From contig REGP01000004.1 in NCBI GenBank assembly GCA_004134995.1, forward strand, positions 186,001 to 250,000: DNA of 64,000 bases. Reading direction: 5' to 3'. Below are positions 17,654-44,160 of the stretch, piece after piece. The position numbers and the translations under genes are program-made. Origin of the DNA: Oxalobacteraceae bacterium CAVE-383 (lineage in GTDB: Bacteria > Pseudomonadota > Gammaproteobacteria > Burkholderiales > Burkholderiaceae_D). Position 1 is the first letter of the stretch, and the number at the start of each line of letters is the position of its first letter. The notes beneath the pieces are model-generated. The model was not told the origin of the DNA and ran no database searches. It was given only the letters and a program-made list of their open reading frames with translations.

Positions 17654-17728
17654 GGAAGGTTAGCTCAGGGGTAGAGCACTGCATTCACACTGCAGGGGTC
17701 GCAAGTTCGAAACTTGCACTTTCCACCA
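17654..17728 (+). tRNA. tRNA-Val (anticodon CAC)
   Basis: A 75-nt cloverleaf: acceptor GGAAGGT pairs with ACTTTCC (one G-U), D arm GCTC...GAGC, anticodon arm CTGCA-TTCACAC-TGCAG giving anticodon CAC (reads GTG), T arm GCAAG-TTCGAAA-CTTGC, and an encoded CCA (17726-17728). A terminator follows at once. Confidence 0.95.
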
Positions 17729-33232: not shown

Positions 33233-33262
33233 CAAAAAAAGGACGCTGCGGCGTCCTTTTTT
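33233..33262. terminator. Bidirectional intrinsic terminator after erpA
   Basis: A-run (33234-33240), GGACGC, loop TGCG, GCGTCC (33251-33256), T-run (33257-33262). Confidence 0.9.
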
Positions 33263-33296: not shown

Positions 33297-33420
33297 GGCT
33301 GTTGCGAAATTCGGCGAGGCGGGGCGTTGTACTGCGTTCGTGTCCCCCGCCGGCCTGCGGCCGCTCCTCCTTTACCTCACTTCGCACAACACCCCGCCTC
33401 GCCGAATCCCGCAACAGGCC
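33297..33420. repeat. Structured dispersed element, copy 1
   Basis: Left arm 33297-33330 and right arm 33386-33420 are complementary over about 32 bp with two A-C mismatches (33307, 33308), one C-A mismatch (33325) and one bulge. The 55-bp core (33331-33385) starts ACTGCGTTCGTGTCCCCC and ends CTCCTCCTTTACCTCACTTCGC around a small hairpin CGGCC-TGC-GGCCG. It lies between the erpA terminator and the hemL stop codon (2 bp away). Confidence 0.93.
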
Positions 33421-33422
33421 GC

Positions 33423-34739
33423 TCAGGCAATGGCTGCGAATGCGTCGCGCGCCGCTTCCAGCGTGGCTTCGATCACGGCATCGTCATGCTGGGCCGATAC
33501 GAAACCGGCTTCGAATGCGGATGGCGCCAGGTACACGCCGGCATCCAGCATGGCATGGAAGAAGCGGTTGAAGCGCTCCTTGTCGCACTGCATCATGCTG
33601 TTGAAATCCTTGGGCGGCCGCTCGGTAAAATACAGGCCGAACATGCCGCCGACGCTGTCGCCGCAGAAGGCGATGCCTTTGTCTTTGCCCGCGCCTTTGC
33701 CCGCATCTTGCGCGATTTTTACCAGTCCATTCACCAGTTTGTCCGTCTGCGCCCCCAGCGATTCGTAGAATCCCGGCGCCTGAATCAATTTCAGGGTGCT
33801 CAGGCCGGCCGCCACCGCCACCGGATTGCCGGACAGCGTGCCGGCCTGATAGACGCCCCCCAGCGGCGCCATGTGCCGCATCAGATCGGCCCGGCCGCCG
33901 AATGCCGCCACCGGCAAACCGCCGCCGATGACTTTGCCCAGCGCGGTAATATCGGGCGCGATGCCGTACAGCGCCTGCGCGCCCCCAAGCGCGACGCGGA
34001 AGCCCGACATCACTTCGTCGAACATCAGCACGGCGCCGTATTCGGTGCAGAGGCGCCGCATGGTCTGCAGGAATTCCTGGCTTGCGCGCAGCAGGTTCAT
34101 GTTTCCGGCGACCGGTTCCACAATCACGCAGGCGATTTCATTGCCCCAAGCCTTGAAGGCGTCTTCCAGCTGCTGTGTGTTGTTGTAATCGAGGACCAGC
34201 GTATGCTTGGCGAAATCTTCCGGCACCCCGGCCGAGGTCGGATTACCGAAGGTCAGCAGCCCGCTGCCGGCCTTCACCAGCAGCGAATCCGCATGGCCGT
34301 GATAGCAGCCTTCGAATTTGACGATCTTGTCGCGTCCGGTCGCGCCGCGCGCCAGGCGCAGCGCGCTCATGGTCGCTTCGGTACCGCTGGAAACCAGGCG
34401 CACCTGTTCGATCGACGGCACCAGCTTGCAGATCTCTTCGGCCATCAGGATTTCGCCTTCGGTCGGCGCGCCGAAGCTGAGTCCGTTCAGCACGGCCTGT
34501 TGCACCGCCGCGATGACTTCCGGATGCGCATGGCCCACGATCGCCGGTCCCCAGGAGCCGATGTAATCGATATAGCGGCGGTCGTCGGCATCCCAGAAAT
34601 AGGGACCCTGGGCGCGTTTGATGAAGCGCGGCGTGCCGCCGACCGAGCGGAATGCGCGCACAGGCGAATTGACCCCGCCGGGCGTGGTCAGCTGGGCGCG
34701 GGCGAAGAGGGTGTCGTTATTGGATGGCGTTGTCGTCAT
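33423..34739 (-). CDS. hemL: Glutamate-1-semialdehyde 2,1-aminomutase
   Basis: 438-residue PLP enzyme forming 5-aminolevulinate in the C5 pathway of tetrapyrrole synthesis. Motifs: [10 protein letters not shown] near the N-terminus, [31 protein letters not shown] and the PLP lysine K269 in [20 protein letters not shown] short Lys/Gly-rich insertion ([11 protein letters not shown]) precedes the C-terminal domain. Followed downstream by repeat copy 1. Confidence 0.97.
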
Positions 34740-34760
34740 GATGCAGAAAGTGAATCCGTA

Positions 34761-35678
34761 TTAAAGCTTTGGAAGGTCGAGCGAGGAAATGCTGTCGGTG
34801 GCGCCGGCCGTGCCGTCGGCGCCGTTGGCTTCCGCCGATTCCCGCGCCCAGAAGTAGCGGTCCGGAATCAGGCGGCCCATGCCCATGCGCTGGGCATGCG
34901 TCAACGCGGCCACGGTGAATTCCTGCGCTTCGGATACCGCTTCCGGCACTTCCAGGCCGTTGGCCAGCATGGCCGCGATCGCCGCCGACAGCGTTGAGCC
35001 GGCGCCGGCGAATGCGCCCGAGATGCGCTGCCACGGGTCGTGGCGGACGATGCCGCTGGAGTCGAAGAGCGTATTGGCGACCTGATTGATTTCGCAAGGC
35101 GTGCCGGTCACGAACAGGAATTCGGCGCCCAGTTCGATGATGTGCATGGCGTCCATCGCCAGCGTATCTTCATTGGCGTCGGTGATGGGTTCGCGCCAGG
35201 TTTCGGCCAGCCGCGACAGTTCGTCGGCCGACAGCAGCAGCACCGTGGTTTGCGGAATCAGCAGTTCGCGAATCGCGATCAGGATGTCTTCGCCGTCGAT
35301 GCCCGGATCCGGCATGGCGGTAATGAAAGGATCCAGGATCAGCGGAATGTCGGGATAGTCGGAAACGATTTCGGCGATCGCCGAGACGCTTTCGATGCTG
35401 CCGACATAGCCGACCTTGAACGCCGTCACCGGCATGTCTTCCAGCACCACGCGCGCCTGGTCGGCGACCCAGTCGACATCGATATCCTGGGTATCCTCGA
35501 TGCGCGCGGTGTCGCCGATCAGGATTGCGGTAATCACGGTCAGGCCGTGGCAGCCCATGGCGGCAAATGTCGCAAGGTCGGCCTGGATGCCGATCGCACC
35601 GACCGGATCGGTAACGCCGAAAGTCAAAATGAGCGAAGAAGTTTGGTTTTGCACGTTGGGTAGATTAAGATATGCCAT
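34761..35678 (-). CDS. thiD: Hydroxymethylpyrimidine/phosphomethylpyrimidine kinase-like protein
   Basis: 305-residue ribokinase-fold ThiD-family kinase of thiamine pyrimidine phosphorylation. TDPVGAIGIQADLATFAAMGCHG matches the substrate region of ThiD, but the usual AGSD-S/P-GGGAG is altered (FGVTDPVGAIG) and the usual GTGCT anion-hole motif reads GAGST. DPFITAMPDPG and LLSADELSRLA (instead of TPN) are also atypical. The start is ATG 35678 (MAYLNLPN); a much longer ORF would overlap the divergent rubredoxin. It may have shifted substrate; the name is a family-level call. Confidence 0.75.
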   Translation of the reverse strand: MAYLNLPNVQNQTSSLILTFGVTDPVGAIGIQADLATFAAMGCHGLTVITAILIGDTARIEDTQDIDVDWVADQARVVLEDMPVTAFKVGYVGSIESVSAIAEIVSDYPDIPLILDPFITAMPDPGIDGEDILIAIRELLIPQTTVLLLSADELSRLAETWREPITDANEDTLAMDAMHIIELGAEFLFVTGTPCEINQVANTLFDSSGIVRHDPWQRISGAFAGAGSTLSAAIAAMLANGLEVPEAVSEAQEFTVAALTHAQRMGMGRLIPDRYFWARESAEANGADGTAGATDSISSLDLPKL

Positions 35679-35781
35679 TTTGCGACGGCCTCTCGGGAGC
35701 TGAAGCGCGCCGCTGCGTTTGGGGATTGACCGGGCCTGCGGATTTGGTATTTTACTTGATTGAATTGAAGGATAGTCAGAC

Positions 35782-35988
35782 GTGAGCGATAACTTGAATG
35801 CGAATGAAAGCGGGAAGCCGGAATTCAAGACCTGGATGTGCCTGATTTGCGGCTGGGTCTATGACGAAGAAGCCGGCTTGCCGGACGAGGGCATCGCCGC
35901 CGGCACCTTGTGGGAAGACGTTCCGATGAACTGGACTTGCCCTGAATGCGGGGCCCGCAAGGAAGATTTTGAAATGGTGGCGATTTAA
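35782..35988 (+). CDS. Rubredoxin
   Basis: 68 residues; the iron is bound by C20, C23 (CLICGWVYDEEAG), C53 and C56 (CPECGARK). One-electron carrier in the cytoplasm. GTG start at 35782 with AAGGAT upstream. Divergent from the thiD-like gene. Repeat copy 2 begins 8 bp after the stop. Confidence 0.95.
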   Translation: MSDNLNANESGKPEFKTWMCLICGWVYDEEAGLPDEGIAAGTLWEDVPMNWTCPECGARKEDFEMVAI

Positions 35989-35995
35989 GGTCTGG

Positions 35996-36123
35996 GAAGC
36001 TGTTGCAAAATGGGGCGAGGCCGGGTGTTGTACTGCGTTCGTGTCCCCCGCCGGCCTTCGGCCGTCTCCTCCTTTACCTCACTTCGCACAACACCCGGCC
36101 TCGCCCCATTTTGCAACAGCTTC
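35996..36123. repeat. Structured dispersed element, copy 2 (perfect 36-bp arms)
   Basis: Left arm 35996-36031 and right arm 36088-36123 are perfect 36-bp inverted repeats. The 56-bp core (36032-36087) is nearly identical to copies 1 and 3, with inner hairpin CGGCC-TTC-GGCCG. It fills the whole gap between the convergent rubredoxin and sseA genes and includes the first base of the sseA stop triplet. Confidence 0.96.
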
Positions 36124-37025
36124 TAAGTTACACCCGTTGCCACCGGCCTGGCCGGATCGGCGCACCATTCGCTCCATGAGCCGGGATACAGCGCAGCGCC
36201 CGGCAGTCCCGCGATTTCCAGGGCCAACAGGTTATGGCAGGCGGTAACGCCGGAACCGCATTGCATGACGCGCTGCCGCGCATCCCCGCTTATATTTCCC
36301 ACGACCTGATTCCATTCGCGCTGCAGATCGGCGGCGGATTTGAAGCGGCCGTCGGCCTGCAGATTATCCTTGAAGAAGCGATTTTTGGCGCCCGGGATAT
36401 GGCCGCCGATCGGATCCAGGGTTTCGTTTTCGCCGCGGAAGCGGTCCGGGGCGCGGGCGTCGATCACCAGGTTTTTGCGGGCTTCAGCCAGCGGATGGGT
36501 CGCGATGTCGAGCAGCAGATCGTCGGCGCCGACGGTTTTGACCAGTGAAGGCCGGTCGCTGATGGCGCCTGGGGAAGGTTGCGGCACGACACTATCGGAC
36601 AGGGCATAACCCGCCTGTTGCCATGACGCCACCCCGCCGTCGAGCACCGCCGCGGCTTCATGCCCGGCCCAGCGCAGCATCCACCACAGACGGGCGGCGA
36701 ACATGCCGCCGTGGGCATCATAGGCCACCACTTGCGTATCGTTGCCGATGCCCCAGCCGGCCAGGGTCTTGAGCCATTGCTTGCGTTGCGGAAGCGGATG
36801 GCGGCCCTTGAAGCGGCCGTCGGCGGCAGGCGCATGGCTTGCCAGATCGTGATCCACGCTGGCGAATAAAGCGCCGGGCAGATGCCCGGCATCGTAGGAC
36901 AGCCGGCCGGCGTCGGCTTGCATAAGATCATGCCGGCAATCGATGACGATGGCGCCGGGCGGCGTCTGATCCAGCAGCGATGCCAGTTCCTGTGCGGAAA
37001 TGAGGGTGGTATAAGGCATGGGCAT
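36123..37025 (-). CDS. sseA: 3-mercaptopyruvate sulfurtransferase
   Basis: 300-residue two-domain rhodanese-like enzyme. The C-terminal active loop is CGSGVTAC with catalytic C256, the 3-mercaptopyruvate (not thiosulfate) type; the N-terminal domain has DGGVASWQQAGY and VIDCRHDL. ATG 37025 (MPMPYTTL) has AGGA five bases upstream, better than the ATG at 37019 or the TTG at 37046. The ribosome-site region is duplicated (37025-37055). 28 bp downstream of the Rieske gene on the same strand. Confidence 0.93.
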   Translation of the reverse strand: MPMPYTTLISAQELASLLDQTPPGAIVIDCRHDLMQADAGRLSYDAGHLPGALFASVDHDLASHAPAADGRFKGRHPLPQRKQWLKTLAGWGIGNDTQVVAYDAHGGMFAARLWWMLRWAGHEAAAVLDGGVASWQQAGYALSDSVVPQPSPGAISDRPSLVKTVGADDLLLDIATHPLAEARKNLVIDARAPDRFRGENETLDPIGGHIPGAKNRFFKDNLQADGRFKSAADLQREWNQVVGNISGDARQRVMQCGSGVTACHNLLALEIAGLPGAALYPGSWSEWCADPARPVATGVT

Positions 37026-37055
37026 CGCAATCCTGTTTTGTCGCAATCCTGTTTT
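37025..37055. repeat. Tandem 15-bp duplication carrying the sseA ribosome site
   Basis: TCGCAATCCTGTTTT occurs at 37025-37039 and 37041-37055, one base apart. On the minus strand each copy contains AGGATTGCGA; the downstream one serves sseA. Confidence 0.93.
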
Positions 37056-38154
37056 ATAACTGGCGCGCCCGATACCACTCGTGGAAATGCTGCATGCCGT
37101 CTTCCATCGGCGACTGGTAGGGGCCGGTTTCGTTGACGCCGCGCGCCATCAGGATGCGGCGGCCGGCATCCATGCGCAGCGCGATTTCATCGTCCTCGAT
37201 GCAGGTTTCCATGTAGGCGGCGCGTTGCGCCTCGACGAATTCGCGTTCGAACAGTGCGATCTCTTCCGGATAATAAAATTCCACGACATTGGTGGTTTTT
37301 TGCGGGCCGCGCGGCCACAAGGTCGATACGATCAATACTTCCGGGTACCACTCGACCATGATGTTCGGATACAGCGTCAGCCAGATTGCGCCGTGGCGCG
37401 GCGGTTCGCCTTCGCGGAACTTGAGCACCTGTTCCTGCCATTTGCGATAGACCGGCGAGCCGGACCTGGCCAGCCGGTTATTGACGCCGACTGTCTGCAC
37501 GCTGTAGCCCGCGCCGAATTCCCAGGTCAGGTCGTCGCAGCTGACGAAGCTGCCGAGTCCCGGATGAAACGGCTCGACGTGGTAATCCTCCAGATAAACC
37601 TCGATGAAGGTCTTCCAGTTGTAATCGCATTCATGGACTTCGGTGTGATCGTACATGTAACCTGAAAAATCCAGGTCCCTGGTCACGCCAAGCCGTTTCA
37701 GCATGGCGGGAATATCGGCGCCATTGCGTTCGAACAGCAGGCCGTTCCAGTTTTGCAGCGGCGTCCTGGACAGGTTCAGGCACGGCGTTTCGCCGAAATG
37801 CGGTGCGCCGATCAATTCGCCTTTCAGGTCGTAAGTCCAGCGATGCAGCGGACAAACGATATTGCGCGCATTGCCGCGGCCGTCCAGCATCTTGGCTTGA
37901 CGGTGGCGGCAGACGTTGGACATCAGTTCAATCCCGGAATCCGGGTTGCGCACCAGCATCCGGCCTTCGTTTTCGGAAGCCAGAGTGGCATAGTCGCCGG
38001 CGTTCGGCACCATGAGTTCATGGCCGACGTAACGCGGACCTGACTGAAAAAGCTGTTGGATTTCGCGCTGCAGCAGCGCTTCGTCGAAATAGACGTTTAC
38101 CGGTAGCTGCGCATCGGAGCGCGCCAGCTTGGCAAAACTAGCAAGATCGGACAT
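37054..38154 (-). CDS. Rieske-type aromatic ring-hydroxylating oxygenase, large subunit-like
   Basis: 366 residues. The Rieske [2Fe-2S] ligands are C82, H84, C101 and H104 (CRHRQAKML...CPLHRWTYD). The mononuclear iron region is visible as WKTFIEVYLEDYHVEPFHPGL (H192, H197). Closest in style to single-component or two-component Rieske oxygenases of the SRPBCC type; the substrate cannot be told, and no reductase gene is adjacent. ATG 38154 is preceded by GGTAGGG. Upstream is an A+T-rich 262-bp gap (38155-38416) shared with divergent xseB. Confidence 0.88.
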   Translation of the reverse strand: MSDLASFAKLARSDAQLPVNVYFDEALLQREIQQLFQSGPRYVGHELMVPNAGDYATLASENEGRMLVRNPDSGIELMSNVCRHRQAKMLDGRGNARNIVCPLHRWTYDLKGELIGAPHFGETPCLNLSRTPLQNWNGLLFERNGADIPAMLKRLGVTRDLDFSGYMYDHTEVHECDYNWKTFIEVYLEDYHVEPFHPGLGSFVSCDDLTWEFGAGYSVQTVGVNNRLARSGSPVYRKWQEQVLKFREGEPPRHGAIWLTLYPNIMVEWYPEVLIVSTLWPRGPQKTTNVVEFYYPEEIALFEREFVEAQRAAYMETCIEDDEIALRMDAGRRILMARGVNETGPYQSPMEDGMQHFHEWYRARQL

Positions 38155-38416
38155 CCCTACCCCCCAAATTAATTCGCACCAACCTAAGAGAGAAAGAATC
38201 CGCAAAAACCTTTGTTCAAACTATTGTCTAAAATAATATGAAGAGGAAATTTTGGACAGAACTCGAAATTATGCCACGTTTGATGTGGATTTGCTCTAAA
38301 TTTGCTCGACTTTGCGGAATACAAGAGGGTTTTAAGCAGTATCAGCGGCGGCCGGGAGCGGATTGTTTTAGAATAACCGGTTATATTTCTCGATAGATTC
38401 AGCAGATCCAAGCCAT

Positions 38417-38680
38417 ATGCCAAAAAATTCCGTGAACACCGCTCAGCCGGCATCGTTCGAGCAGGCCATGCAAGAGCTGGAGCTGCTGGTGGCCCAGATG
38501 GAGGCCGGCGAATTGCCGCTGGAAGCCTCGGTCGCCGCCTACAAGCGCGGTTCGGAACTGGTCAAGTTCTGCAGCAGCCAGCTCGACAAGGTGGATCATC
38601 AGGTCAAATTGCTGGAAGGCGGCATGCTCAAGCCGTTCACGCCGGATGGCGATGGCGGCGGTGAAGAGGAGCCGCAATGA
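38417..38680 (+). CDS. xseB: Exodeoxyribonuclease VII small subunit
   Basis: 87 residues, FEQAMQELELLVAQMEAGELPLEASVAAYKRG is the family signature, with a disordered Gly/Glu-rich tail. Pairs with XseA (not in the window). Stop overlaps ispA by 4 bp (ATGA), the classical xseB-ispA-dxs order. Confidence 0.95.
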   Translation: MPKNSVNTAQPASFEQAMQELELLVAQMEAGELPLEASVAAYKRGSELVKFCSSQLDKVDHQVKLLEGGMLKPFTPDGDGGGEEEPQ

Positions 38681-39606
38681 GCGCGGTGGAACGGGCGCTC
38701 GAAGCGGTGCTTCCGGAAGCCGAATTCTCGGTCTGGATGAAGCGGGTGCAGGAAGATATTGAAACCGCGCTGGATCATTTCCTGACGCCGTCCGGGACGG
38801 TGCCGGCACGTTTGCACGAGGCCATGCGTTATGCGGTGTTGGGCGGTGGCAAGCGCGTTCGTCCGCTGCTGGTGTTCGGCGCGGGCAGCCTGTTCGATGC
38901 GCCGCCGCCATTGCTGGCGCGCGCCGCGGCGGCGCTGGAAATGATTCACGTTTATTCGCTGGTGCATGACGACATGCCTTGCATGGATGACGATGCGTTG
39001 CGCCGCGGCAAGCCGACGGTGCATGTGCAATACGACGAAGCGACCGCGCTGCTGGTCGGCGATGCGTTGCAGGCGCAGGCGTTCTGGCTGCTGTCGGAAC
39101 CCGGCGGCCTGATCGATCCGGCGCGCCAGCTGGCGATGGTCAATCTGCTGGCGCAGGCCGCCGGCTCGCTCGGCATGTGCGGCGGCCAGGCGATCGATCT
39201 GGCCAGCGTCGGATTGCAACTGTCGCTGCCGCAGCTTGAACAGATGCACCGCCTGAAAACCGGCGCCCTGCTGCGCGCTGCGGTACTGTTGGGCGCTTCC
39301 TGCGGCAGCCGCCTGACGCCGCCGCAGCACGAGGCGCTGGAGCGCTACGCAGGGGCGGTCGGACTGGCGTTCCAAGTGGTTGACGATATACTCGATGGGA
39401 CCGCCGATTCGGCGACGCTGGGCAAGACCGCCGGCAAGGACGCGGTCGACAACAAGCCGACTTATGTGTCGATACTCGGGCTCGAACAGTCCCGCGTGCT
39501 GGCGCTCAAATTGCGCGACGACGCCCATCAGGCGTTGCAGCCGTTCGGCGACGGCGCCCTGCGCCTGCGGCAACTCGCGGACCTGATCGTCCGGCGGCAG
39601 GCCTGA
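38677..39606 (+). CDS. ispA: Farnesyl diphosphate synthase
   Basis: 309-residue prenyltransferase condensing isopentenyl diphosphate to farnesyl diphosphate. First Asp-rich motif in [13 protein letters not shown], second in FQVVDDILD, with [10 protein letters not shown] and [10 protein letters not shown]. Slightly long at the N-terminus. Co-transcribed with xseB and probably dxs, 46 bp downstream. Confidence 0.95.
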
Positions 39607-39652
39607 GCCGAGGCGGATTCGCGCCCGGCACTTACTTCTAATACGGCACAGC

Positions 39653-41524
39653 ATGCTCAAAACAATTAACTCACCCGACGATTTACGACTGCTCTCGCGC
39701 AAGGAACTGATTCCGCTGGCCGACGAGCTGCGCCAGTTCGTGCTCGAATCGGTCGCCAAGACCGGCGGCCACCTGTCGTCCAATCTGGGCACGATCGAAC
39801 TGACGATCGCGCTGCACTACGTATTCAATACACCTGAAGACCGTATCGTATGGGACGTCGGCCATCAGACCTATCCGCACAAGATACTGACCGGCCGCCG
39901 CGATCTCATGGGCAGCCTGCGCCAGCAGGGCGGCATTTCCGGTTTTCCGCGCCGCAGCGAAAGCGAATACGACACCTTCGGCACCGCCCATTCGTCGACC
40001 TCGATTTCGGCCGCGCTCGGCATGGCGCTGGCCGCCAAGGCCAAGGGCGAGAACCGCCATGCGATCGCCGTGATCGGCGATGGATCGATGACGGCCGGCA
40101 TGGCGTTCGAGGCGCTCAATAACGCCGGCGTCTGCGAAGACGTCAATCTGCTGGTGATCCTGAACGACAACGATATGTCGATCTCGCCGCCGGTGGGCGC
40201 ATTGAACCGCTATCTGGCGCGGCTGATGTCCGGCCAGTTCTACGCCAAGGCCAAGCATGTCGGCAAATCCGTGCTGCCAGGACCGGTGCGCGAACTGGCC
40301 AAGCGGCTGGAAGAGCATGCCAAGGGCATGATCGTGCCGGCCACCATGTTCGAGGAATTCGGTTTCAACTATATCGGGCCGATCGACGGCCATGATCTGG
40401 ATTCGCTGATCCCGACGCTGCAGAATCTGAAAAACCTGAAGGGTCCGCAATTCCTGCATGTCGTCACCAAAAAAGGGCAGGGCTACAAGCTGGCGGAGGC
40501 CGACCCCGTGCTGTATCACGGCCCCGGCAAGTTCGATCCGGCCGAGGGCATCAAACCGGCCGCCGCGGGCAAGAAGACCTATACCCAGGTATTCGGCGAC
40601 TGGCTGTGCGACATGGCGGCGCACAACGACAGGCTGATCGGCATTACGCCGGCCATGCGCGAAGGTTCCGGCATGGTCGAATTCGAACAGCGCTTTCCCG
40701 ACCGTTATTACGATGTCGGCATTGCCGAGCAGCATGCGGTGACCTTTGCCGCCGGCCTGGCCTGCGAAGGCATGAAACCGGTGGTGGCGATCTATTCGAC
40801 CTTTTTGCAGCGCGCCTACGACCAGTTGATCCATGACGTGGCCTTGCAGAATCTGGATGTCACATTTGCGCTGGACCGCGCCGGACTGGTCGGCGCCGAC
40901 GGCGCCACGCACGCCGGCAATTACGACCTGGCTTATCTGCGCTGCATTCCGAACATGGCGGTCATGGCGCCATCGGACGAAAATGAGTGCCGCCGGATGC
41001 TTTCCACCGCTTTCCTTTACAATGGCCCTGCCGCGGTGCGTTATCCGCGCGGCGCGGGCATCGGCGCCGAAGTGCAGCGCGATCTGGCGCCGATAGCGTT
41101 CGGCACCGGCGAAATCCGCCGCGACGGACGCAAAGTCGCCATTCTGGCTTTCGGCAGCATGCTGGCGCCGGCGCTGGCGGCGGGCGACAAGCTGGACGCC
41201 ACGGTGGCCAACATGCGTTTCGTCAAACCGCTGGATATTGCCTTGCTGAAACAATTGGCCGGGCAGCACGACGCCCTGGTGACAGTGGAAGAAGGCACGG
41301 CCATGGGCGGCGCCGGTTCAGCGGTGGCGGAAGCGCTGGCCGAGGCGGGCATTGTCAAACCGCTATTGATTTTGGGCTTGCCGGACCGATTTATCGACCA
41401 TGGGGATGCGCCCAAGCTGCTGGCATCATGCGGACTGGATGCCGCCGGCATCGCTGCTTCGGTACTGCAGCGCTTCGGCGCCGAATTTTTGCAGCAGGGG
41501 CCTCGTCCGGCGAAAGTCGGCTGA
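39653..41524 (+). CDS. dxs: 1-deoxy-D-xylulose-5-phosphate synthase
   Basis: 623-residue thiamine-diphosphate enzyme, entry point of the MEP isoprenoid pathway. [20 protein letters not shown], the ThDP-binding [38 protein letters not shown] with the catalytic Glu, and the C-terminal transketolase domain are all in place. Together with ispA it links precursor supply to ubiquinone (coq7, ubiA are nearby). Confidence 0.97.
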
Positions 41525-41600
41525 AGCGGCGTCATGGATTGGCATTGAGCGGCATTGAACGATTCAGCCGGTCTGCTTTTTGATCGAATCACCGAATTAT

Positions 41601-41637
41601 AAAAAAAAGGAGCCAGGCTCCTTGCCGCCGCGGCGGC
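41601..41637. other. Two adjacent palindromes in the folE2 leader
   Basis: AAGGAGCC (41607-41614) and GGCTCCTT (41616-41623) pair, preceded by an eight-A run; GCCGCC/GGCGGC (41624-41637) follows directly. On the minus strand this is a hairpin with a T-run. On the plus strand CTCCTT could also pair with the GGAAGGAA ribosome site (41643-41650) of folE2. Confidence 0.55.
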
Positions 41638-41657
41638 CACCTGGAAGGAATAAGCAA

Positions 41658-42464
41658 ATGAATACGCGCGATACGAACCTCGTCACCATGCCCGATGTGC
41701 AGGACACCCTCGATACCCGCCACCTGGTCATCCAGCGCGTCGGCGTCAAGGGCGTGCGCTATCCGCTGACCGTCAAGACCGGCGAAGCCGTGCAGTCCAC
41801 GGTCGGCACCTGGAACATGTATGTGCATCTGCCCGAAGAGAAAAAGGGCACGCACATGTCGCGTTTCATCGCGTTGCTGGAAGGCCTGGACGGCGCATTG
41901 GACGCTGCGCGTTTCGATACGCTGATGCGCGATATGGTCAAGCTGCTGGATGCCAAAGCCGGCCGCATCGAGGTCAACTTCCCTTATTTCATCAACAAGA
42001 CGGCGCCGGTTTCGGGCGTGCAGAGCCTGATGGACTATGAAGTCGGTTTTGTCGGCGAAATCAGGAACGGCGAACTGGAAGTGTCGCTGAAGGTGCTGGT
42101 GCCGGTCACCAGCCTGTGCCCGTGCTCGAAGAAGATTTCGGCCTATGGCGCGCACAACCAGCGTTCGCATATCAGCGTCACGGCGTTGCTGGGCGGAGAC
42201 TTGCCGGTCGATGCGCTGATCGCCGCGATCGAAGCGCAGGCTTCCTGCGAACTGTACGGCCTGCTGAAGCGGCCGGACGAAAAATATGTCACGGAACGGG
42301 CTTACGATAATCCGAAATTCGTCGAAGACCTGGTGCGCGACGTCGCCGTCATGCTCAACAATGAAGCGGCGATTCTGGCATTCACGCTGGAAGCGGAGAA
42401 CTTCGAATCCATCCACAATCATTCGGCTTACGCGATGATCGAGGGCGACAAGCGCAAAAAGTAA
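41658..42464 (+). CDS. folE2: GTP cyclohydrolase FolE2 (type IB)
   Basis: 268-residue metal-dependent GTP cyclohydrolase of folate synthesis, unrelated in sequence to FolE. The hallmark is [23 protein letters not shown] (metal-ligand Cys), plus [12 protein letters not shown] and the C-terminal [20 protein letters not shown] 41658 has GGAAGGAA eight bases upstream; the ORF start at 41580 would translate through the leader palindromes and is rejected. Confidence 0.95.
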
Positions 42465-42469
42465 TCCCG

Positions 42470-42502
42470 GAAGTCCTGGCCCGGCAGGCCTGCCGGGACT
42501 TC
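42470..42502. terminator. Hairpin between convergent folE2 and PduO-type gene
   Basis: GAAGTC (42470-42475) and CCGGCAGG pair with CCTGCCGG and GACTTC (42497-42502), leaving a small bulge; the inner part CCCGGCAG-GC-CTGCCGGG is a perfect palindrome. There is no T-run, so termination efficiency is uncertain. It touches the stop codon of the leftward gene. Confidence 0.5.
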
Positions 42503-43043
42503 AATCCCTGCGCCACAGCACATCCGCGCCGCCATCGGCGCGATTCAGTACGCGCGCCAATACAAACAACAGATCCGACAGGCGATTCAGATACTGCCGC
42601 GGACCGTCGTTGACCGCTTCGCCGCGGCCGAGGCTGACCACGCTGCGCTCGGCGCGGCGGCACACGGTGCGGCACACGTGCGCCAGCGCCGCGGCGCGGG
42701 AGCCGCCAGGCAGGATGAATTCCTTCAGGGGCGGCAGATCGGCATTGTAATGCGCCAGCAGCGCGTCCAGCGCCGCTATTTGCCGCTCGCCGATCAGTGC
42801 GTATCCCGGAATGCACAATTCGCCGCCCAGATCGAATAATTGATGCTGTATGGCAAGTAATTGCAGCCGCAGCGCCGCCGGCAGCGATTCGCACAGCAAT
42901 ACGCCCAGCTGGGAATTGAGTTCATCCACATCGCCCATGGCATGCACCCGTGCGCTGTCCTTGTCCACGCGGCTGCCGTCGCCCAGGCCGGTGGTGCCGT
43001 CGTCGCCGGTGCGCGTTGTAATTTTGGAAAGCCGATTACCCAT
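42501..43043 (-). CDS. Cob(I)alamin adenosyltransferase, PduO type
   Basis: 180 residues. ITTRTGDDGTTGLGDGSRV at the N-terminus forms the ATP site, RAERSVVSL and YLNRLSDLLFVLARVLNR are the PduO-type signatures. Makes adenosylcobalamin from corrinoid and ATP. ATG 43043 (MGNRL) with GGGGTG upstream is preferred over a GTG two codons earlier. No cobalamin riboswitch was seen in its short leader. Confidence 0.93.
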   Translation of the reverse strand: MGNRLSKITTRTGDDGTTGLGDGSRVDKDSARVHAMGDVDELNSQLGVLLCESLPAALRLQLLAIQHQLFDLGGELCIPGYALIGERQIAALDALLAHYNADLPPLKEFILPGGSRAAALAHVCRTVCRRAERSVVSLGRGEAVNDGPRQYLNRLSDLLFVLARVLNRADGGADVLWRRD

Positions 43044-43140
43044 ATTCACCCCAAATCACCCATCCTAAATCGATTATCCGCCGCTGCACGAGGTAAAATC
43101 GGCAACGCGCCTTCAACACCCATTAAAAAACACGGATCAA

Positions 43141-44031
43141 ATGGCAACACGTCTTCCTCCAGTGCATGCATTGTCTGCCTTCGAAGCAGCTTCCCGACAT
43201 AACTCATTTGCCATTGCCGCCGAAGAACTCTGCATCACGCCATCCGCATTGTCGCATCGCATCCGCCTGCTCGAAGATTTCGTCGGCGAGCGCTTGTTCC
43301 ATCGCGACGGCCGCACTATCAATCTGTCCGAATTCGGCCGGCGCTACCTGGAAGTCGTGCGCAGCGCCTTGCGCACCCTGACGGATTTTCCGATGCCGAG
43401 CAGGGACGCGGTGGTGCAGCCGAAAGTCAAGATCGTGCTGCCGCCGACCTTCGCCCGCCACATGTTCATTCCGCGCCTGAAGCAGTTCACGCAGATGTAT
43501 CCGGAAATCGGCATCGAATTGTTCCTGTCGGTGCCTTTGTACGATCTGAGCCTGTCCGAAAGCGACGTCGAAATCCGCTTCGGCGCGGGCCGCTATGCCA
43601 ATCTGATTACCGAGAAACTGTTCGAGGAACCGACTTTCGCGGTTGCCAGCCCGGCTTATCTGAAAACCATCGCGCCGCTGAAAAAGCCGGCCGATCTGGA
43701 ACACGCCACTTTGCTGCGTTCGGCATTGGAGCCGTGGCAGCCCTGGTTCGAGGTCGCCGGCCTGGATTGGGCCGAGCCGTCCACCGCGCTGCGGGTCGAC
43801 GATCTGGGCCTGCTGCTGGAAACCATACGGCACGGCCATGGCGTCGGCCTGGCGCGCCAGCATTTCGCACAGGAATTGCTGGACAAGGGCGAGCTGGTGG
43901 AACTGTTCGACCAGGTGCATCTGAAAACGCCGCCGCATGCCTATTACGTGGTCTACGACAGCCGGGTGCGCGAACGGCGCGAAGTGAATGTTTTCATCGA
44001 CTGGCTGCGGGCGGCGTTCGCCAGCCTGTAA
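43141..44031 (+). CDS. LysR-family transcriptional regulator, GcvA-like
   Basis: 296 residues. The N-terminal helix-turn-helix is LPPVHALSAFEAASRHNSFAIAAEELCITPSALSHRIRLLED, the GcvA style of LysR; the C-terminal effector domain follows (about residues 95-295). It precedes glcDEF on the same strand by 283 bp, with repeat copy 3 in between, so it may regulate glycolate use, but the usual divergent LysR/target layout is absent. Target unknown. Confidence 0.9.
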   Translation: MATRLPPVHALSAFEAASRHNSFAIAAEELCITPSALSHRIRLLEDFVGERLFHRDGRTINLSEFGRRYLEVVRSALRTLTDFPMPSRDAVVQPKVKIVLPPTFARHMFIPRLKQFTQMYPEIGIELFLSVPLYDLSLSESDVEIRFGAGRYANLITEKLFEEPTFAVASPAYLKTIAPLKKPADLEHATLLRSALEPWQPWFEVAGLDWAEPSTALRVDDLGLLLETIRHGHGVGLARQHFAQELLDKGELVELFDQVHLKTPPHAYYVVYDSRVRERREVNVFIDWLRAAFASL

Positions 44032-44044
44032 GAATCAGTTTTAA

Positions 44045-44160
44045 AAGCGGTTTCAAAATCAGGCGGCGCGTTGTACTGCGTTCGTGTCCCCCGCCGGCCT
44101 TTGGCCGGCTCCTCCTTTACCTCACTTCGCACAACACGCCGCCTGATTTTGAAACCGCTT
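44045..44160. repeat. Structured dispersed element, copy 3
   Basis: Left arm 44045-44074 and right arm 44131-44160 are 30-bp inverted repeats with one mismatch. Core 44075-44130 (56 bp) with inner hairpin CGGCC-TTT-GGCCG. Begins 13 bp after the LysR stop. The rest of the gap to glcD (44161-44314) holds no other clear feature. Confidence 0.95.

Follow-up and report, generated by a model that had tools for sequence, protein, structure and literature searches.

The 64,000-nucleotide stretch analyzed here (the window: positions 186,001 to 250,000 of contig REGP01000004.1, assembly GCA_004134995.1, Oxalobacteraceae bacterium CAVE-383) contains three copies of a repeat element built from a constant centre and variable, self-complementary arms. 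The folded, purine-rich strand of each copy is the reverse (-) strand of the window. Copy 1 (33297..33420, -) lies 79 nt past a Fe-S biosynthesis gene (+) that is convergent with a class-III aminotransferase gene (-), whose stop is 2 nt away; we take these two genes to be erpA and hemL. The two constant loop strands of copy 1, at 33331..33348 and 33364..33385 (both -), read GGGGGACACGAACGCAGT and GCGAAGTGAGGTAAAGGAGGAG on the purine strand and flank an apical hairpin region with a variable loop (33349..33363, -). Copy 2 (35996..36123, -) follows a rubredoxin gene (+), whose stop codon is 7 nt away, and abuts a convergent rhodanese-domain gene (-); its constant loop strands are at 36032..36049 (-, GGGGGACACGAACGCAGT) and 36066..36087 (-, GCGAAGTGAGGTAAAGGAGGAG), with the apical hairpin region at 36050..36065 (-). 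Copy 3 (44045..44160, -) lies upstream of an FAD-oxidase gene (+), at a distance of 13 nt from the stop codon of the preceding gene (+), which encodes a LysR substrate-binding domain; here the constant strands are at 44075..44092 (-, GGGGGACACGAACGCAGT) and 44109..44130 (-, GCGAAGTGAGGTAAAGGAGGAG), and the apical hairpin region at 44093..44108 (-). A first-pass annotation of the window had placed three copies at these positions, and its description holds for the cores (33331-33385, 36032-36087 and 44075-44130), for the outer arms, about 30-36 nt in length, and for the 5-bp hairpin, whose loop is TGC, TTC or TTT. A 19-nt piece of the core, allowing up to three mismatches, matches the window three times and 100 shuffled versions not at all. 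Single-strand folding of copy 2 gave z = -12.0 for the + strand and -12.7 for the - strand, with none of 200 shuffles as good on either.

The annotation had proposed a structured repeat family. The family is real, but it is far larger than three copies. The constant core has 26 exact matches in the 4.1-Mb source genome, G000 (14 forward and 12 reverse, against none for a reversed control); a right-half pattern allowing up to three mismatches finds 88 copies, and a covariance model (R1) makes 91 matches, 90 of them above 70 bits. In a pattern search of 120 genomes including G000, only G000 and a congener, G017 (19 copies), matched. R1 run over 294 genomes of the family hit G000 and a single copy in G008, which has an almost identical loop and unrelated arms and hairpin; G017, which supplied part of the sequences behind R1, is absent from these matches, probably not having been drawn. 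A loop pattern run over 399 genomes of the order gave six carriers, G000 and five members of one other family, in which the long hairpin is unrelated to that of G000. In the GTDB r220 genomes the purine-strand pattern matched at least 114 further stretches, mainly from Burkholderiales; loci are given for 80 of these. Carriers among the matches listed include Rubrivivax, Hydrogenophaga, Rhodoferax, Variovorax, Methylibium, Aquabacterium, Caldimonas and Sulfurisoma, among others, together with Pseudoxanthomonas from outside the Burkholderiales group. A second model, R2, applied with stricter filters to 369 genomes of the class, returned four carriers including G000, and it found 16 to 24 copies in each of four genomes chosen as carriers. 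The family is thus broad but patchy, and the consensus of its elements is genome-specific. A covariance model of it can be used to annotate what are at least 114 stretches in GTDB genomes.

Is the family already known under another name? A search of the window against Rfam 15, as the annotation had suggested, matched only a tRNA and nothing at the element; with the threshold relaxed to E values up to 1, five element loci matched only microRNA hairpin models, far below their gathering scores. The annotation had named membership of a known family, or a lack of copies beyond these three, as outcomes that would refute it, and neither occurred: Rfam gave no match and further copies are numerous. 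No earlier description was recognized in the titles, abstracts and passages covered from the open literature, and one may exist elsewhere. Viral contigs gave no match, and a phage origin was rejected on that ground. Several contigs of G017 end within or beside a copy, which is a warning for assemblers. At three loci (L150, L151 and L152) a short GCGGTCGCGACGGTGCC-like unit is tandemly repeated, in differing copy numbers, beside elements of family f12. The window also has a tRNA gene at 17654-17725.

Mismatches within the stems identify the strand that folds. A G.T opposition on one strand is an A.C opposition on the other, so that roughly equal counts are expected if neither strand folds. Among the 88 copies of the source genome, the purine strand has 118 G.T against 9 A.C and 41 other mismatches (3245 stem pairs, 168 mismatches and 10 gaps); restricting the count to gap-free stems and excluding a fixed U.G at pair 6 leaves 45 G.T against 5 A.C. 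The outer stems of 111 elements from other genomes (scored from 119 found, 118 of them distinct) show 199 G.T, 16 A.C and 74 others (p 2e-41), and their hairpins, paired end to end without gaps, 38, 8 and 69. Mismatches shared by descent are counted repeatedly in all these figures. The folded strand is the purine strand, the complement of the one on which the first-pass annotation had drawn its structure.

The arms, though variable, are nearly always complementary, as the annotation had it. Elements are about 80-125 nt long, with a median stem of 37 bp in the 88 copies of G000 and of 23 bp in the 111 elements from elsewhere. In an alignment of 35 diverse elements (A4, from which one wrong stretch and one decayed row had been removed), 96.1% of cells pair, compared with 69.2% after shuffling; 23 of 26 pairs have changed on both sides, and sliding the register lowers pairing to 34-39%. 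The shuffles take no account of relatedness, and the same sequences served both to draw the structure and to test it; the slid control nevertheless argues against an artefact, as does the size of the effect. Compensatory pairs therefore exceed both the shuffled and the slid controls, which is the mark of a structured RNA. Covariation has the same sign for single-stranded DNA, however, and is not specific to RNA. Taken with the wobble asymmetry, it means that one single strand must fold, in line with the earlier suggestion of a folded RNA or single-stranded DNA.

Less of the earlier picture survives at the centre, which had been seen as a large unpaired internal loop. On the complementary strand GTGAG faces CGAAC, and GA stands opposite GA in 108 of 118 usable elements. 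In those 108 the pair outside the tandem GA is C-G in 79, T-A in 23 and otherwise in 6, and the pair inside it is A-T in 86, G-C in 21 and otherwise in one, so that the Watson-Crick pairs flanking the tandem G.A/A.G covary; the collection scan had fixed the right-hand side of both pairs by class only (Y or R), and a local search also favoured A or G as the left-hand base of the inner pair. Some elements (L190, L197, L398 and L410) have Watson-Crick pairs in place of the G.A segment (GAC/GTC, GAA/TTC or GGC/GCC). Much of the supposed loop is accordingly predicted to be helix, in which tandem G.A oppositions, probably true base pairs, are flanked by Watson-Crick pairs that covary. The idea of an internal loop without any pairing was rejected in favour of this G.A-rich helix.

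Two stretches remain constant, TAAAGGRGGA on one side and GGRGGACA on the opposite side. At the two R positions the 89 copies of the source genome have A/G in 38 cases, G/A in 50, A/A in one and G/G in none, and 220 distinct elements of other genomes have A/G in 200, G/A in 14, A/A in six and G/G again in none, although many of the latter were collected with a pattern that required A/G. G/G would remove both GGAGG motifs, and its absence implies that one GGAGG is nearly always kept; one element, with C/G at the variable positions, has none. A two-quartet G-quadruplex formed from the four GG tracts was considered, and fails to explain the missing G/G. The constant loop also carries AAAGGAGG, a Shine-Dalgarno core, on the folded strand (window 36068-36075, and in the other copies).

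The elements are intergenic and sit mostly just past stop codons. Sorted by neighbouring genes (both neighbours were called in 88 of 89 cases), the copies of the source genome have convergent genes on either side in 45 cases, tandem genes in 35 and divergent genes in 8, mostly with a gap of 0-35 nt from the stop codon. These assignments come from a simple custom gene caller; its calls for the same loci and for the window give 89 (++), 85 (--), 55 (+-) and 53 (-+) pairs of adjacent genes. For other genomes we used 138 distinct elements from named and fetched loci, some of them orthologous. Here close pairs of elements are almost always inverted (37 of 38, - then +), and 32 of the 38 start 134-173 bp apart. 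Thirty such pairs placed relative to genes were convergent in 14 cases, tandem in 16 and divergent in none; 43 single elements, some of which may have a missed partner or one beyond 350 bp, were convergent in 18, tandem in 12 and 11 (by orientation) and divergent in two. The source genome is different: among its 90 strong copies no two lie within 350 bp of each other, and so it has no inverted dimers. Within tandem gene pairs the purine strand is co-directional with the genes in 20 cases and opposed in 15 in the source genome, and is divided 12 to 11 among the singles of other genomes. A bias with respect to replication (purine strand lagging 56, leading 34; n = 90, p = 0.026; 45 against 28, p = 0.06, in regions of clear skew), based on partial skew data, was set aside as too weak to use. 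Of the gene families beside the elements of other genomes, none is shared by more than 7 of the 80 loci; two reach this number, and by eye they look like common families.

Comparison of related genomes shows the elements coming, going and changing in place. The class-III aminotransferase gene of the copy 1 locus was detected in every one of the 34 genus genomes. Among 30 loci read, the element is present only in G000. In 27 of the 29 others the same two genes are convergent, 79-212 bp apart and element-free; the exceptions are L301, which ends too early, and L306, where the second gene lies at a distance of 1.2 kb. Between the convergent genes of copy 1 (window 33234-33262), and likewise in most of the congener loci read, there is a short inverted repeat that contains runs of A and of T and resembles an intrinsic terminator; the copy 1 element has been added beside it. 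At another locus, G000 and G017 (L026 and L046) have an element beside the same gene in the same orientation, with different arms. At L026 (1460-1610) the palindrome runs for 50 bp with two mismatches and includes the stop codon and end of the adjoining gene, as if template switching had copied one flank to the other.

A closer pair, Hydrogenophaga pseudoflava G1052 and G1053 (92% identical over the compared loci), allowed 16 of 19 G1052 elements to be compared, the other three having no counterpart among the loci fetched. By our reading, seven were kept; three had the same stem with paired changes and a different hairpin; three had been replaced whole at the same spot, one of these also being inverted; two were absent and one could not be placed. 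The seven kept elements, which were chosen after looking, show 22 differences in 675 positions, compared with 183 in 1086 immediately beyond their ends. In two of the five alignments some of this outer DNA is poorly aligned, and without these two the figures are 13 of 481 and 81 of 741. A first count, in which kept and exchanged elements were mixed and partner elements counted as flank, gave 90.3% identity for elements and 89.7% for flanks. Kept orthologous copies thus change slowly, a statement limited to the kept copies. Among individual changes, L390/L403 shows a compensatory A-T to G-C change within the helix of the loop and, in the stem, a one-base loss that is likewise paired. In the right element of L397, although it is kept, a 4-nt change disrupts pairing.

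The family has the marks of a mobile repeat: an element gained at a conserved site, elements exchanged and inverted in place, a genome-specific consensus, and no preferred orientation between tandem genes. We would give about half of our belief to the reading that these are mobile extragenic repeats resembling repetitive extragenic palindromes (REPs) and bacterial interspersed mosaic elements (BIMEs), kept for the fold of one strand and spread by an enzyme that recognizes the loop of that folded strand. The purine-rich strand would fold into a long variable stem and a predicted G.A helix, together with a purine loop that hardly varies and an apical hairpin that does; an enzyme acting in trans would mobilize the element through a folded intermediate, either single-stranded DNA or RNA, and the loop may be the part recognized. 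HUH-type single-strand transposition is expected to leave no target-site duplication. Direct repeats of at least 5 nt were found at the estimated stem ends of none of 86 copies, and 3- or 4-nt repeats there were no commoner than in shuffles, which fits transposition of this type.

Several observations weigh against this reading. In the first place, the ends of the stems are uncertain, and a duplication hidden inside an arm could have been missed. The slow change of kept orthologous copies, for its part, speaks for a use of each copy beyond mobility alone. Finally, a mobilizing gene was not found among the genomes and Y1 loci tested. The HUH transposase family Y1_Tnp was sought through Pfam, so that only Y1 genes detected in this way are covered. 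All 34 genomes of the genus have it, and almost every one of them is element-free; in the Y1 proteins of the two that carry the element, G000 and G017 (L278:1384-2208 and L430), DQVQ replaces the HUH motif and both histidines are lost, and 19 of 20 other congener Y1 loci have an intact motif (one gave none). In G1052 and G1053 the Y1 motif reads DHFQ, one histidine being lost, and in G1055, which has 20 elements, Y1 was not found. Six further Y1 loci had no HUH motif by the pattern used. The motif is intact in the element-bearing genomes G698, G958 and G1054, so that Y1 is not excluded everywhere. That said, about 1.5 kb around 14 Y1 loci in 10 element-bearing genomes held no convincing element (one match reached 17.8 bits). 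Over the 34 genus genomes and 10 further or overlapping ones, a Y1/RAYT transposase as the mobilizer was thus unsupported.

The strongest competitor, possible but in our judgement clearly less probable, is a structured RNA at the 3' ends of mRNAs: the purine-strand transcript would fold, its loop would be bound by a protein or the ribosome, and the structure would protect or end the message. An inverted pair would then supply the transcript of each strand with one working copy. The slow change of kept copies leaves such a role in play, and the tolerance of G.U pairs agrees with it, as do positions mostly 0-35 nt past stop codons, the rarity of divergent placement (0 of 30 pairs, 2 of 43 singles, 8 of 88 in G000), the Shine-Dalgarno core in the loop and the absence of G/G at the GG?GGA and GG?GG positions (0 of 89 and 0 of 220, part of the latter collected with A/G required). 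Against it, the purine strand is not clearly more often co-directional in tandem pairs, and these counts (20:15 and 12:11) fit a mobile strand better than a cis-acting 3' RNA; presence is also patchy, with 2 carriers in the draw of 294 genomes of the family.

Cargo raises a further, improbable alternative, namely that the element is a boundary or recombination site like a folded attC, at which genes between an inverted pair are swapped. Two inverted pairs of G1052 enclose genes. At L397 (2688-4130) the gene encodes an Mrr restriction endonuclease (PF04471, E 5e-39), and the G1053 contigs that carry the two sides of this locus continue into other DNA. At L398 (2570-3688) the pair encloses a 116-aa open reading frame without a Pfam match, and in the G1053 counterpart the left element and the DNA between differ. 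The 38 close pairs scored, however, enclose only a short spacer (pairs more than 350 bp apart fall outside this count), and no integrase turned up, though none was sought. Least probable of all, and rejected for want of a target-site duplication (none of 86 copies has one of at least 5 nt), is a miniature inverted-repeat transposable element (MITE) of a DDE transposase, i.e. the terminal inverted repeats of a lost insertion sequence around filler: the element shares with MITEs its inverted arms, intergenic position, multiple copies and insertion at an otherwise conserved site, but its arms vary while its middle is constant, which is a MITE reversed, conserved terminal inverted repeats are missing, and, as the wobble asymmetry shows, the folded form is a single strand.

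Returning to the mobile-repeat reading, how does the family compare with known systems? Integron attC sites conserve the structure of one strand over its sequence, may bound cargo and stand in direct arrays. The family resembles them in the first two respects; it differs in its inverted pairs and long constant loop and in having no known integrase. A candidate RNA, Burkholderiales-1, listed without an Rfam accession (PMC2864571), comes from the same bacterial order, and its table entry does not permit further comparison. The terminal inverted repeats of TIRYT transposases, as described in the passages of PMC3733652 drawn on here, are in some cases self-complementary and form dimers, and their GGGGWSAS motif resembles GGGGACAC of the loop (its T variant excepted); they are, however, defined by flanking a Y1 gene, whereas 14 Y1 loci here lack a convincing element. 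CGTC-tagged REPs share the organization of the family and have no known dedicated transposase, but in the same source their stems are 8-9 bp, their loops 4-5 bp and their tag CGTC, which occurs near the stem ends of only 8 of 86 copies here.

The closest comparison is with REPs and BIMEs that are linked to RAYT transposases. From the parts of PMC2817692 and PMC3733652 used, REPs are 20-40 bp repeats with a GTAG or CGTC tag, and their stems measure 5-13 or 8-9 bp. In the two genomes shown as diagrams, the repeats between convergent genes are mostly no more than 20 bp from both 3' ends, and dimers are predominantly head-to-head. The family is like them in its high copy number, its intergenic position near 3' ends, mostly between convergent or unidirectional genes, its rarity between divergent genes, its inverted dimers (in other genomes only), its compensatory stem changes and its genome-specific families (PMC2817692, PMC3733652). 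It is unlike REPs as there described in its size (about 80-125 against 20-40 nt), its median stem (37 or 23 bp against 5-13), its constant loop with a variable stem, and the lack of a GTAG tag and of any linked transposase found. Within 8 nt of the stem ends, on either strand, GTAG occurs in 0 of 86 copies, GTGG in 1 and CGTC in 8, and no RAYT gene flanked by the repeats was found among the Y1 genes that Pfam detects. The first-pass annotation had called the element the reverse of a MITE or REP; this is right for the sequence, with its constant centre and no GTAG tag, but not for the genomic organization, which is REP/BIME-like. Its observation was thus confirmed and its interpretation upheld in part. 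Since the organization is shared while the tag, the size and the transposase link fail, we regard the family as REP-like in its working without classing it as REP. More tentatively still than the RNA alternative, we suggest that it could represent a new class of mobile repeat, in which the folded strand is read inside and not at its ends, a G.A-rich helix holds the constant purine loop, and the arms are free to vary so long as they stay complementary. Such repeats would be copied and exchanged in place past stop codons by machinery that is neither RAYT nor DDE, and their inverted pairs could enclose and swap genes, restriction enzymes among them. GTAG-type REPs are tied to RAYT; the present family, a widespread one, combines the same genomic habits with a far richer, strand-specific fold and no RAYT link found, and so opens to test both the identity of whatever reads a fold of this kind and the reason why the hairpins gather at the ends of genes.

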